A stretch of 58,273 nucleotides of DNA from an uncultured Bacteroidia bacterium (GTDB lineage Bacteria > Bacteroidota > Bacteroidia > NS11-12g > UBA9320). A program made the translations under genes and the position numbers. Each line of letters begins with the position of its first letter. The stretch's first letter is position 1. Below the pieces are notes generated by a model. That model was not told where the DNA came from, ran no database searches, and saw nothing but the letters and a program-made list of their open reading frames with translations. Shown one piece after another: positions 2,587 through 40,819 of the stretch. The stretch lies in NCBI GenBank assembly GCA_905478335.1, contig CAJQIC010000027.1:1-58273 (forward strand). Direction: 5' to 3'.

Positions 2587-3972
2587 TTATAAGTGAATCA
2601 CCTCATCGTAAGCTGCTGCCGCTGCTTCCATTACCGCTTCACTCATAGTTGGATGTGGGTGAACCGTTTTGATAATCTCGTGACCAGTTGTTTCCAACTT
2701 TCTTGCTGCAACAACTTCGGCGATCATTTCTGTAACATTCATACCAATCATGTGGGCGCCTAAAAACTCCCCATATTTTGCATCAAATATCACTTTAACA
2801 AAGCCTTCTTTAGCCCCTGCTGCGCTTGCTTTACCACTCGCAGAAAACGGGAACTTTCCAATCTTTAATTCGTAACCCGCTTCTTTTGCTTTCGCTTCGG
2901 TCATGCCCACAGAAGCTATTTCTGGAGAACAGTATGTACAACCAGGAATATTGCCGTAATCTAGAGGCTCAGGATTCTCACCTGCAATTTTCTCGACGCA
3001 AATAATTCCTTCAGCGCTTGCCACGTGAGCCAATGCTGGTCCGGCAACAATGTCGCCAATCGCATAAACTCCAGGAACGTTTGTTTGATAATAATCGTCA
3101 ACAACCACGTGACCTTTATCCGTTTTAATGCCCATGGTTTCAAGACCGATGCCTTGGATATTGGTTTGAACACCCACTGCCGATAATACAATTTCAGCAG
3201 ACATTTCTTCCATGCCCTTAGCCGTTTTTATAGACACTTTGCAATCCTTTCCAGATGTATCTACTTTTTCAACAGACGAAGACGTCATCACATGGATGCC
3301 TTGTTTTTTGAACTCTTTAGCAAGTGCTTTAGACACATCAATGTCTTCATTTGGCACTATATTAGGTAAGAACTCAACCAAGGTTACGTCAGTTCCCATG
3401 GCGTTGTAGAAATAAGCGAACTCACTTCCAATCGCGCCACTACCAACGATCACCATTGACTTTGGCAATTTTGGTAAAACCATTGCTTCATGGTAACCAA
3501 TCACCTTTTTCTTGTCTATTTTTAAGTGTGGCAATTCGCGCTCTCTAGCACCAGTTGCCAACACTATATTTTTCGCTTCTGCAATTGACTTCTTTCCATC
3601 GTTGTCGACTTCTACTTTTCCTTTGCCAACGAGTTTACCAAAACCGGTAAGCACTTCAATCTTGTTTTTCTTCATCAAGAATTGAATGCCTTTGCTCATG
3701 CCGTTTGCGACCTCACGACTTCGTTTTACTACGGCTCCAAAATCTGCCGAAGCTTCTTTAACTGATATTCCATAATTTGAAGCATGGTTAATGTAATCAA
3801 ACACTTGAGCAGACTTTAATAGCGCCTTTGTTGGGATACAACCCCAGTTCAAACAAACACCACCAAGCTCAGCTTTCTCAACTATGCCTACTTTCATTCC
3901 AAGTTGTGCTCCTCTAATGGCAGCTACATAACCGCCAGGACCACTACCTATCACTAATAAATCGTATGCCAT
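2587..3972 (-). CDS. lpdA: Dihydrolipoyl dehydrogenase (E3)
   Basis: 461 residues, the normal family length. FAD-binding GSGPGGY is at the N-terminus, the redox-active disulfide motif GGVCLNWGCIPTKA follows near residue 40, and an NAD-binding GSGAIGSEF motif is central. The C-terminal dimer interface carries the catalytic HPHPTMSE (His-Glu pair). The enzyme reoxidises lipoyl groups of pyruvate/2-oxoglutarate dehydrogenase complexes or the glycine cleavage system. No E1/E2 genes are adjacent, so the partner complex cannot be named. It is monocistronic, with its own -7 box and terminator. Confidence 0.97.
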   Translation of the reverse strand: MAYDLLVIGSGPGGYVAAIRGAQLGMKVGIVEKAELGGVCLNWGCIPTKALLKSAQVFDYINHASNYGISVKEASADFGAVVKRSREVANGMSKGIQFLMKKNKIEVLTGFGKLVGKGKVEVDNDGKKSIAEAKNIVLATGARERELPHLKIDKKKVIGYHEAMVLPKLPKSMVIVGSGAIGSEFAYFYNAMGTDVTLVEFLPNIVPNEDIDVSKALAKEFKKQGIHVMTSSSVEKVDTSGKDCKVSIKTAKGMEEMSAEIVLSAVGVQTNIQGIGLETMGIKTDKGHVVVDDYYQTNVPGVYAIGDIVAGPALAHVASAEGIICVEKIAGENPEPLDYGNIPGCTYCSPEIASVGMTEAKAKEAGYELKIGKFPFSASGKASAAGAKEGFVKVIFDAKYGEFLGAHMIGMNVTEMIAEVVAARKLETTGHEIIKTVHPHPTMSEAVMEAAAAAYDEVIHL

Positions 3973-37904: not shown

Positions 37905-38639
37905 TTCAGCAACAGTAATACCTGTAGCCGCATTGGTTAAAATTATTGTATTCGCTTGCGCAATATCTTGAAGACGAATAGACGTAAATTCAACACTTAA
38001 GGCTTTAGCAATATACCTTTGATAAACGCCTTGAACTGGTCCGTGCTGTTCAGCAACGCCACACCACTTGTTCGCTTTTTTTATCAGAATGTTGCTAGAA
38101 AGGGCTTCGCAGATTAACCCCTTATCGTTTAGCAAAATGACATCGTCCAAATCTGATTGGTTTTTTAGATATAATCCAGCTTTTACAAACAAGAGCGCTG
38201 AAGTCGACTTTAACCCAGATAGCACATTTGCTGATTTGGTTATTTCCTCATATATGCCAATTCGGATCGGCTGTCTTGATGACAGCACCTGCTCGACTTG
38301 TTCGAGGTTGAGTACAAAGGAACCAGACCGCTCAGGCACCGGTCTATACCTATAAGTGAGACCAACGTCACACGACTCAGGTATATAGGTTCCGCCGCCC
38401 TCCCTGAAAAAGTCTAACCGAACAATGTCGTTCCCTTTAGGTTGATTTTGAAGGATTTCCGTTTTTAAGCTATCAAACGTTGACGCGTCTGGCCATGTGA
38501 ACTGTAGCAATGCGCCTGCCTTTTTTGCCCGGTCTAGATGAAGAGACCACAAAGGAATATCGTTGTTGATTATGCGCATGGTTTCGAAAAAACCATCGCC
38601 ATACAAGAAGCCACGATTAAAATTGTTTACACTAGCCAT
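37893..38639 (-). CDS. Aminotransferase class IV (PabC/IlvE-like PLP enzyme)
   Basis: 248 residues. Fold-type IV PLP enzyme: GFLYGDGFFETMR near the N-terminus, the PLP lysine in NVLSGLKSTSAL, and the C-terminal TNAATGI phosphate-binding segment. Length and the N-terminal sequence fit 4-amino-4-deoxychorismate lyase (folate pathway) as well as a branched-chain or D-amino-acid aminotransferase. ATG 38639 overlaps the stop of the upstream transporter (ATGGCTAG), so the two are translationally coupled. Confidence 0.82.
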   Translation of the reverse strand: MASVNNFNRGFLYGDGFFETMRIINNDIPLWSLHLDRAKKAGALLQFTWPDASTFDSLKTEILQNQPKGNDIVRLDFFREGGGTYIPESCDVGLTYRYRPVPERSGSFVLNLEQVEQVLSSRQPIRIGIYEEITKSANVLSGLKSTSALLFVKAGLYLKNQSDLDDVILLNDKGLICEALSSNILIKKANKWCGVAEQHGPVQGVYQRYIAKALSVEFTSIRLQDIAQANTIILTNAATGITVAELVG

Positions 38640-39969
38640 AAAACATTCCTGCAACTGCAGCTGTCATTAAGCATGCTAATGTTCCACCTAACAAAGCCCT
38701 TAATCCTAATTTTGCTAACGTGGGGCGTTGATTTGGTGCGATTGTACCAATGCCCCCAATTTGAATGCCTATAGAAGCAAAATTAGAAAATCCACACAGT
38801 GCATATGTCATAATCACTACTGTTCGATTGTTGGCTATTAAACCATTGGATTGCATATTGCCCAAAGAGATATAAGCGATAAATTCATTGATTACTGTTT
38901 TTTCGCCTAACAATTGACCTGCCAAAAGGGTATCGTTCCACGGAATTCCAATCACCCACGCAACGGGAGCAAACAAATATCCAAGTATCATTTGCAATTT
39001 AAACTCCGTATACGTGCCGTCGCTAACCACTTTAACCCATTCATTAAGGCCTGTATTGTGACCTATTACATTTGCTAATAAGTAATTAATCATGGCAATA
39101 AATGCCAAGAATACGAGGATCATTCCACCTACATTAACGGCTAACTTAATACCTTCTGTTGTTCCATTCGAGATAGCCTCTAAAGGCCCGCTTCCAATTT
39201 TCGTTTTATCAATATGTAAATCCTTGTCCACATTTTCCTTTTCGGGAAGCAACATTTTACTAAAGACTATCGCTGCTGGCGCACTTAGCACAGATGCGGT
39301 TAATAAATGTTTGGCGAACATTTGTTGCATTTCAATACTATCGCCTCCAAGCAATCCAATAAATGCGGCAAATACCCCACCAGCTATTGTTGCCATTCCT
39401 CCTGTCATAAGACATAGTATTTCCGAATTGGTCATACTTTTTATATAAGGCTTAACCACAAGTGGCGCTTCAGTTTGCCCAACAAAAACATTGGCTGCAG
39501 CTGCCAAACTTTCTGCACCGCTCAAGCGCATTGTTTTACTCAATATCCATGCAAAACCGTATACAATTTTCTGAAGCACACCCAAATAGTACAATAAAGA
39601 CGTAAGTGCTGAAAAGAAAACTATGGTTGGCAATACTTTAAAAGCAAAGACATACCCTATTGTATGCGTAACTTGTGTAGAGGTACCATCTACGTTCTCC
39701 ATTGAAAACAATTGCGCTACGTCCGGCCACTTCCCAAAAATAAACTGTGCACCTTCATCTGTAAAAGACAATAGCTTAGTAAAGGATGCGGCTAATACTT
39801 CAAATACTTTATCAAACCCTGGCACCTTAAATATTAATAATGCCAGAACGAGCTGCATAGCAACGCCTGACAATACCAATCGCCAATTGATTGATTTTCT
39901 ATGACTACTAGAAATAAATGCTATGGCCAACAGTACGATAAGACCAAGTAATCCTTTAAGTATGTACAT
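38632..39969 (-). CDS. CNT family nucleoside transporter (NupC-like)
   Basis: 445 residues from ATG 39969, with about 10 helices. Signatures of the concentrative nucleoside transporter family are visible: VGQTEAPLVVKPY and MTGGMATIAGGVFAA, and a C-terminal CGFSNFASIGIQIGGIG. It brings nucleosides in with H+ or Na+. The longer frame from 40041 adds 24 residues not seen in the family. A near-consensus -7 box (CACCTTTG, 39974-39981) lies 4 nt before ATG 39969. It is coupled to the following PLP gene. Confidence 0.9.
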   Translation of the reverse strand: MYILKGLLGLIVLLAIAFISSSHRKSINWRLVLSGVAMQLVLALLIFKVPGFDKVFEVLAASFTKLLSFTDEGAQFIFGKWPDVAQLFSMENVDGTSTQVTHTIGYVFAFKVLPTIVFFSALTSLLYYLGVLQKIVYGFAWILSKTMRLSGAESLAAAANVFVGQTEAPLVVKPYIKSMTNSEILCLMTGGMATIAGGVFAAFIGLLGGDSIEMQQMFAKHLLTASVLSAPAAIVFSKMLLPEKENVDKDLHIDKTKIGSGPLEAISNGTTEGIKLAVNVGGMILVFLAFIAMINYLLANVIGHNTGLNEWVKVVSDGTYTEFKLQMILGYLFAPVAWVIGIPWNDTLLAGQLLGEKTVINEFIAYISLGNMQSNGLIANNRTVVIMTYALCGFSNFASIGIQIGGIGTIAPNQRPTLAKLGLRALLGGTLACLMTAAVAGMFYG

Positions 39970-40071
39970 CGGGCAAAGGTGCAAAAAAATGGAATACTTG
40001 GTGACACTTATCGAGACGAATAAAGTCTCCTTTTGAGACATTTTGTTCTTTTTGGGAATTTATCCAATATT

Positions 40072-40087: not shown

Positions 40088-40159
40088 CCACACAATATAT
40101 CGCACTAAGCCCTCACTACCAACGCATTATGTAGTTATTTTATTGATTCATCCAAGTTG

Positions 40160-40174
40160 TGGCACAAGGATTGA
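40160..40174 (+). promoter_or_regulatory. Sigma-54-type promoter of small RNA A
   Basis: TGGCAC, five bases, TTGA. The GG and the -13 G are 12 bases apart as RpoN requires; the only consensus mismatch is A for C at -12. Predicted start about 40186. Confidence 0.6.
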
Positions 40175-40185
40175 AATAAACATAA

Positions 40186-40384
40186 CACATCGAATGATCG
40201 ATAAAGACTTTTGATAAATACTATACTACACTACTTATTACTTACTACTTACTACTTACTACTTAAAGTTATTAATTACTGATCTACTACTAAACAAAAC
40301 GCCAAGCGTTTAAATTAATTTAACTTTATTATTAACCATCGCTCGACTCGAGCAGAAAAGCCACCTCACCAGGTGGCTTTTTCA
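40186..40384 (+). ncRNA. Candidate small RNA A (about 200 nt, sigma-54 type promoter)
   Basis: No open reading frame of note. In order: a 5' hairpin (ATCGA/TCGAT, 40189-40202); a tract at 40210-40250 that matches RNA B in 40 of 41 bases and contains no G after its first few bases; two more ACTACTT heptamers to 40264; a small hairpin AAACGC/GCGTTT (40297-40311); ATTAACCAT; a hairpin GCTCGA/TCGAGC (40341-40353); then a terminator. The size, promoter type and paired layout resemble GlmY/GlmZ of enterobacteria, but no sequence similarity is seen. Function unknown. Confidence 0.6.
40358..40382 (+). terminator. Intrinsic terminator of small RNA A
   Basis: Stem GCCACCT (40360-40366) with AGGTGGC (40371-40377), loop CACC, then five T residues. 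Confidence 0.85.
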
Positions 40385-40522
40385 TTTCATGACATTTCTT
40401 TTTTGATTTTGAGACTATTTCTACTTTTGAGAATATATTCCCAATATGCGCTATTTTCTTATTATTGGCACAGTGTGTATTTCGCCAAAAACTATACTTA
40501 AGTCACTGTTTACAAAACACTT

Positions 40523-40541
40523 ATGCCGTTTTTTGCGGCAT
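40523..40541 (+). promoter_or_regulatory. Inverted repeat upstream of the RNA B promoter, possible activator site
   Basis: ATGCCG and CGGCAT separated by seven bases, ending 12 nt before the -24 element. Sigma-54 promoters need an enhancer-binding activator, and such a dyad could be its site, though activator sites usually lie further upstream. A weak terminator or structured leader is an alternative. Confidence 0.35.
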
Positions 40542-40553
40542 TTTCGAATTTGT

Positions 40554-40568
40554 TGGCACACGCATTGC
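40554..40568 (+). promoter_or_regulatory. Sigma-54 promoter of small RNA B
   Basis: TTGGCACACGCATTGCAT at 40553-40570: TGGCAC, five bases, TTGC. All core positions match the RpoN consensus with exact spacing. Predicted start about 40580. Confidence 0.7.
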
Positions 40569-40579
40569 ATTATGTAAAT

Positions 40580-40792
40580 CGTTCAACACGAACAAAGAAA
40601 TTAAAACATTTGATAAATACTACACTACACTACTTATTACTTACTACTTGAAAATTATTTAAAATTCTGTTTTTACTATTTTTACTACTATTAAGCTTAA
40701 GCCCGTGAGGGACAAGTAAAACTAACCACTAATTACTACCATGCTCTAATTAAGAGCTTAAAGGCCGCCTTAACTAAGCGGCCTTTTCTTTT
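40580..40792 (+). ncRNA. Candidate small RNA B (about 210 nt, sigma-54 promoter)
   Basis: No credible coding region. Architecture parallels RNA A: 5' hairpin GTTC/GAAC (40581-40593), the shared tract at 40609-40649 (only one base different from A), a hairpin CCC-GTGA-GGG with a GNRA-type loop (40702-40711), ATTACTACCAT, a hairpin GCTCT/AGAGC (40743-40757), then a terminator. Hairpins at matching positions have different sequences but keep pairing, which supports selection on structure. The alternative is a regulated leader for icmF, whose -7 box starts about 20 nt after the terminator. Confidence 0.6.
40761..40790 (+). terminator. Intrinsic terminator of small RNA B
   Basis: Stem AAGGCCGC with GCGGCCTT across a 9-nt loop, followed by a T-rich tail. 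It ends about 20 nt before the icmF -7 box. Confidence 0.82.
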
Positions 40793-40811
40793 ATGTCAAA
40801 TACGAAAAGAA

Positions 40812-40819
40812 TATCTTTG
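40812..40819 (+). promoter_or_regulatory. TAnnTTTG -7 box of icmF
   Basis: TATCTTTG, 18 nt before ATG 40838. It lies downstream of the ATG at 40793, so that longer frame is not the product. Confidence 0.55.

Follow-up and report, generated by a model that had tools for sequence, protein, structure and literature searches.

Tandem small RNA genes with conserved sigma-54-type promoters, confined to one genus of Bacteroidia: possible decoys for a regulator of surface-protein translation

Two tandem small RNA units upstream of a mutase-type gene

The DNA analyzed here (the window) is a whole 58,273-nt stretch, contig CAJQIC010000027.1 of an uncultured Bacteroidia bacterium. Between a nucleoside-transporter-like gene and a fused mutase-type gene, it carries two transcription units of ~205 and ~215 nt, A and B (Table 1). 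An earlier note, made from the letters of this DNA, had described two such units with a nearly identical 41-nt tract. Both were found where it had placed them, and the two tracts (40210-40250 and 40609-40649) are identical at 40 of 41 positions.

Table 1. Positions of the genes, promoter elements and RNA features at the locus
Feature	Position	Strand	Basis or remark
Nucleoside-transporter-like gene	38632-40041	minus	
Upstream element, unit A (GTCTCCTTTTGAGAC ... TTTTTGGGAATTTATCC)	40025..40065	+	aligned upstream regions, 9 copies; degenerate; -135 to -108 relative to the -24 box; possible enhancer-binding-protein site
Sigma-54 -24/-12 element, unit A (TGGCACAAGGATTGA)	40160..40174	+	-12 is GA, not GC
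Small RNA A	40186..40386	+	start inferred from promoter; covariance-model match 40210-40386
Conserved ACUAC-rich tract, RNA A	40210..40264	+	lengthened by extra ACTACTT units
Middle hairpin, RNA A (AAACGCCAAGCGTTT)	40297..40311	+	fold
ACCAT and GCTCG/CGAGC hairpin, RNA A	40335..40353	+	sequence and fold
Intrinsic terminator, RNA A	40356..40384	+	fold and family comparison
Upstream element, unit B (TTCTACTTTTGAGAATATATTCCCAATATGCG)	40419..40450	+	degenerate copy of TTCCCATTTTGAA direct repeat
Sigma-54 -24/-12 element, unit B (TGGCACACGCATTGC)	40554..40568	+	perfect match
Small RNA B	40580..40791	+	start inferred from promoter; covariance-model match 40609-40791
Short 5' hairpin, RNA B (GTTCAACACGAAC)	40581..40593	+	sequence and fold
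Conserved ACUAC-rich tract, RNA B	40609..40649	+	sequence comparison
Middle hairpin, RNA B (CCCGTGAGGG)	40702..40711	+	fold
ACCAT and GCTC/GAGC hairpin, RNA B	40738..40757	+	sequence and fold
Intrinsic terminator, RNA B	40760..40790	+	fold and family comparison
-7 box (TATCTTTG), mutase gene's own sigma-A promoter	40812..40819	+	kept in relatives
Fused methylmalonyl-CoA-mutase-type gene	from 40838		domains: B12-binding, MeaB, mutase

Distribution and structure of the RNA family

By exact pattern search, three further MAGs that go by the names Bacteroidetes or Bacteroidia also proved to carry the tract. Their tandem copies (3, 2 and 2, respectively) occupy the corresponding position, 5' of the same mutase gene. 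A covariance model run over 108 genomes of the order returned 11 copies, located in exactly the 5 genomes of the genus (all 5 species available); each genome has 2-3 copies, and two divergent ones occur in G032. Neither the pattern nor the covariance-model search found a family member in the order's 103 genomes outside the genus, and the 11 copies, all from one genus, are not independent. One match, in G012 (L007), was located within a coding sequence and was taken as chance. In Rfam 15, which covers the sequence families of known decoy and pairing sRNAs, no family reached the gathering threshold for either RNA, in agreement with the proposal of an unrelated family, and at gathering and permissive thresholds the window yielded just a tRNA and weak terminator-like matches. 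The names of the relatives likewise bear out the assignment of the family to Bacteroidota.

A strong intrinsic terminator, noted earlier for the two units of the window, is present in 11 of 11 copies, and the terminator helix (10 pairs) is the only one in the RNAalifold consensus. RNA A and RNA B fold better than dinucleotide shuffles (z of -5.75 and -3.27, respectively). Upstream of the terminator the RNAs are largely unstructured and ACUAC-rich, with 2-6 mostly unpaired ACUAC sites per RNA (shuffles have ~1) and a G content of 10-15%. Of the other hairpins, the middle and GCTC/GAGC ones recur at the same position across copies with different sequences; the 5' hairpin is short and could not be clearly recognized in the divergent pair of copies from G032. 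A 24-codon ORF in one G032 copy (L117) has no counterpart in the other copies, and a coding role was rejected. The conservation of promoter cores and terminators among the 11 copies in 5/5 genomes supports the earlier reading of two homologous, sigma-54-type, terminator-ended small RNA genes, with units A and B as members of a tandem family restricted to this genus.

Conserved sigma-54-type promoters

The TGGCA-N6-TTG promoter core is invariant in 11/11 copies from the 5 species; most flanking columns agree in 4-8 of the 11. It is located 47-56 nt upstream of the tract-opening TTTGAT in ten copies and 71 nt upstream in one. The -12 dinucleotide is GC in 6 of the 11 copies and a non-consensus GG or GA in the other five. 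Of the two RpoN -24/-12 elements originally proposed for the window, that of unit B is a perfect match, and that of unit A has the core but departs from the consensus at -12. A strict sigma-54 pattern matched 8 times genome-wide and 8 times in the reversed control, i.e., at the level of chance, and the sigma-54 argument therefore rests on conservation and not on number. A search for rpoN and an enhancer-binding regulator, suggested in the earlier note, found both in the genome: an RpoN whose RpoN box is intact, and two GAFTGA-bearing activators. In Flavobacterium psychrophilum, a mapped sigma-54 regulon has typical -24/-12 elements and includes the sprB surface-adhesin operon (PMC9723704), which indicates that such promoters work in this phylum.

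Several copies have two TTCCCATTTTGAA-like half-sites 5' of the -24 box, at distances of ~117 and ~136 bp from it and 19 bp apart. The pair is exact in G032 (L117), near-exact in L005 and degenerate in the window, and in a 269-kb scan the best TTCCCATTTTGAA-like pairs were located mainly upstream of sigma-54 RNAs. It is possible that these repeats serve as an enhancer.

An element shared in sense with mRNA leaders

Elsewhere in the genome, the core of the tract has a single further exact match, 23 nt long when its flanks are included. It is in the same orientation and immediately precedes the start codon of a gene for a LamG-like surface protein. Relatives of this protein, which were found by protein similarity and not by the motif, mostly have leaders like ACTACTATTACTACTACTACTTAATTATTGATGAA-ATG; the motif is weak in one of them (L028). 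One LamG relative carries a T9SS sorting tail. In the genus's 5 genomes, all 13 perfect ACTACTACTACTWAA sites fall in sense leaders, with 0 for the reversed control. They belong to LamG relatives (five sites), a large PKD-domain protein in 5/5 species, a response regulator in two species and a small secreted protein in one. The order's other 103 genomes have 5 such sites, one in a leader of a neighboring genus and the others not in clear leaders. ACUACU-repeat tracts just 5' of start codons are a feature of LamG-like and PKD surface proteins and of the response regulator. A literature search on ACUACU leader elements found nothing relevant.

Similarity between leaders and RNAs was also scored, using samples and pattern searches. 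Candidate leaders, of which those found by the motif are selected for similarity and the LamG relatives are not, had sense scores of 11-23, compared with a mean of 8.4 and a 95th percentile of 10 for 157 control leaders. The top control score (19) was that of the mutase leader, which overlaps RNA B, and the next was 14. Antisense and reversed scores were at background in the 18 candidate and 157 control leaders. At 15/18, no near-complete complement of the tract was detected in the genome apart from one at L025:1500-1525 (G000:C73), where AAGTAGTAAGAATAAAGTAGTG, directly 3' of the stop codon of a lipoprotein gene, could pair with the tract at 19 of its 22 positions; this may be a chance match or a pairing partner.

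In the PKD mRNA, a hairpin immediately 5' of the start codon, GCUGAC-AAUGCG-ACUACUACUACUAAA-...-GUCAGC, presents the repeat as its loop. The G032 version has a compensatory change in the stem (GCUGGC/GCCAGC) and keeps the loop. The stability of the stem is not unusual compared with shuffles (z of -0.5 to -1.8), and the single compensatory change is therefore the better evidence for this hairpin.

Several further occurrences were noted. In the window's genome, an ACTACT stretch is present in the leader of a small secreted protein (L127:16200-16250), and an ACTACT leader (L130:9068-9120) precedes the gene for an Hpt-domain protein directly 3' of a GAFTGA activator. In G034, two neighboring surface-protein genes are preceded by a shared hairpin-containing sequence, AGTTTAAGTAATCAGTAAAGTAATATCCGGCTCTGAGAC-GAGCCGGAT (L032:1450-1498 and 3480-3533). 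The divergent G032 RNA copy on the minus strand of L117 contains CTACTTGATGAAA and ATGCGACTAC, which resemble parts of LamG and PKD leaders.

The LamG-like genes have repeats in their promoters as well: TTCCCATTT-TGGA ... GTCTATATTTGAA, ~21 bp apart and overlapping the -33/-7 region (L026, L027, L029, L033-L038). These resemble the half-sites upstream of the sigma-54 RNAs, and one regulator may possibly act on both. In four species, a sigma-54 activator gene with a receiver domain was found directly 5' of a LamG-like gene (L124:9102-12895; L125:8940-12858; L034; L036); the window's own genome yielded no pair of this kind. The paired activators of G034 and G035 are without an obvious C-terminal DNA-binding helix-turn-helix, and that of G033 has an internal TAG.

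Alternative explanations

The likeness of the RNAs to the leaders is in sense, and so suggests that both have a partner in common more than that they pair with each other. Most multicopy sRNAs do act by pairing. The FopS RNAs, which are paralogous with single-stranded 5' regions, pair near start codons (PMC11697453). The RNAs could be base-pairing sRNAs with the tract or another single-stranded part as the mRNA seed and only a secondary likeness to leaders. The 22-nt stretch in L025 could be such a target, and the leaders examined are a minor part of those in the genome. However, antisense similarity stayed at background in control and candidate leaders alike while sense similarity rose above it, and no further near-complete complement was found in the genome at 15/18; we consider pairing unlikely. 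A common partner may itself be an RNA: the leaders might be repressed by a small RNA whose seed is of the GUAGU type and which the sigma-54 RNAs sponge, and a motif in a hairpin loop would also suit loop-loop pairing. However, among the genome's matches examined (one on C49 left out), no intergenic complement to ACTACTACTACTTAA was found at 13/15; shorter seeds would still fit, and we regard such a sponge as somewhat less probable again.

Alternatively, ACUACU may simply mark an unstructured, translation-friendly type of leader, and the small RNAs would be a duplicated leader that does not act on it. The motif is G-poor and unpaired, and the divergent copy L117 keeps CTACTTGATGAAA, which resembles a LamG leader together with the beginning of its gene. 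Against this, the motif is rare (3 of 122 sampled leaders of the window's genome) and confined to a few surface and regulatory genes, the PKD leader presents it in a loop with a compensatory change, and the tract is kept in 11 copies across species despite diverged flanks. This explanation appears improbable. Least of all do we favor a cis-acting leader (riboswitch or attenuator) of the mutase gene. A copy is indeed always directly 5' of this gene where the contig shows it, but each of the two or three copies is a full unit that has both a promoter and a terminator, and a conserved -7 box belonging to the mutase gene itself, 3' of the last terminator, separates this gene from RNA B. A cis-acting role is thus very improbable.

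A possible decoy for a translational regulator

The RNA family, its conserved sigma-54 sites and terminators, and the element shared in sense are supported by the genome comparison. The reading that we prefer, to which we give roughly even chances, is that the sigma-54 RNAs are decoys which titrate a translational regulator that binds ACUACU in surface-protein leaders. RpoN polymerase with an enhancer-binding activator would transcribe the tandem RNAs A and B, and the regulator would bind ACUACU near the start codon in the LamG-like, PKD and response-regulator leaders. When the activator is on, the RNAs would titrate this regulator, and the output of surface proteins would follow the sigma-54 signal. 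Expression of the RNAs, the binder, the sign of regulation and the acting activator are parts of this scheme that we infer. The same applies to the identity of the binder's site, because the repeated unit in the leaders is mainly ACU repeats and that in the RNAs is ACTACTT. The decoy reading is new, and the more general idea of a sigma-54 small RNA family, put forward in the earlier note, holds.

Hfq was not detected in the genus's 5 genomes, although control genomes were positive. Each genome encodes two RRM proteins, which are candidate binders of ACUACU; their own leaders lack the motif, giving no sign of autoregulation. More tentatively, the ACUACU repeats next to the start codon in mRNAs for secreted adhesin-like proteins, in some cases displayed in a hairpin loop, are perhaps read by an RRM protein that the tandem sigma-54 decoys titrate, in a system convergent with CrcZ-Hfq and CsrB-CsrA.

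Comparison with known systems

The analogy drawn earlier with GlmY/GlmZ and Qrr applies to the multicopy sigma-54 design but not to Qrr-like pairing, as the likeness to leaders is in sense and not antisense; a decoy role like that of GlmY or CrcZ fits better. Qrr RNAs of Vibrio are multicopy and sigma-54-driven, as are the RNAs described here, but they act by base pairing that involves Hfq, which is missing here. The CsrB/RsmZ decoys of CsrA carry a repeated motif of target leaders, where it occurs in hairpin loops. The logic is the same here, but theirs is a GGA motif with different promoters, whereas our RNAs are G-poor.

GlmY and GlmZ of enterobacteria are likewise homologous RNAs with sigma-54 promoters, and GlmY is a protein decoy (PMC7073468). 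In contrast, GlmZ pairs with glmS, while no pairing target was seen here, and the copies described here are tandem, ACUAC-rich and without an Rfam match. CrcZ/CrcY of Pseudomonadaceae are RpoN-dependent RNAs with A-rich motifs in several repeats, and they keep Hfq away from sites of translation initiation (PMC4063720; PMC6292655). They share with our RNAs an RpoN-type promoter, an enhancer-binding activator, more than one copy and a repeated unpaired motif that also occurs at target translation starts. They differ in motif (A-rich versus ACUACU), in length (407 versus ~200 nt, the latter without an Rfam match) and in targets (catabolic genes versus putative surface-protein targets); Hfq is absent from our genus, and the decoy role of our RNAs is putative. 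Within the phylum, Bacteroides has the FopS/GibS RNAs and RbpB, an RRM-class RNA-binding protein (PMC11697453). Like our RNAs, FopS/GibS are paralogous, have a conserved tract that is single-stranded and occur in genomes that encode an RRM protein, but they are 65-70 nt long, have sigma-ABfr promoters and pair near start codons; our RNAs have no Rfam match.

Hardly any decoy RNAs or translational repressors of the Csr or Hfq/Crc type are known from Bacteroidota, and the rules by which the RRM proteins of this phylum recognize RNA are still largely open. At this locus, a defined RNA motif comes together with a small set of candidate target leaders, a putative regulated decoy and candidate binders, which makes what these proteins read directly testable. 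If the decoy reading is true, it would link sigma-54 signaling to secreted surface proteins and would represent a post-transcriptional circuit, in bacteria without Hfq, that is a counterpart of CrcZ-Hfq and CsrB-CsrA.
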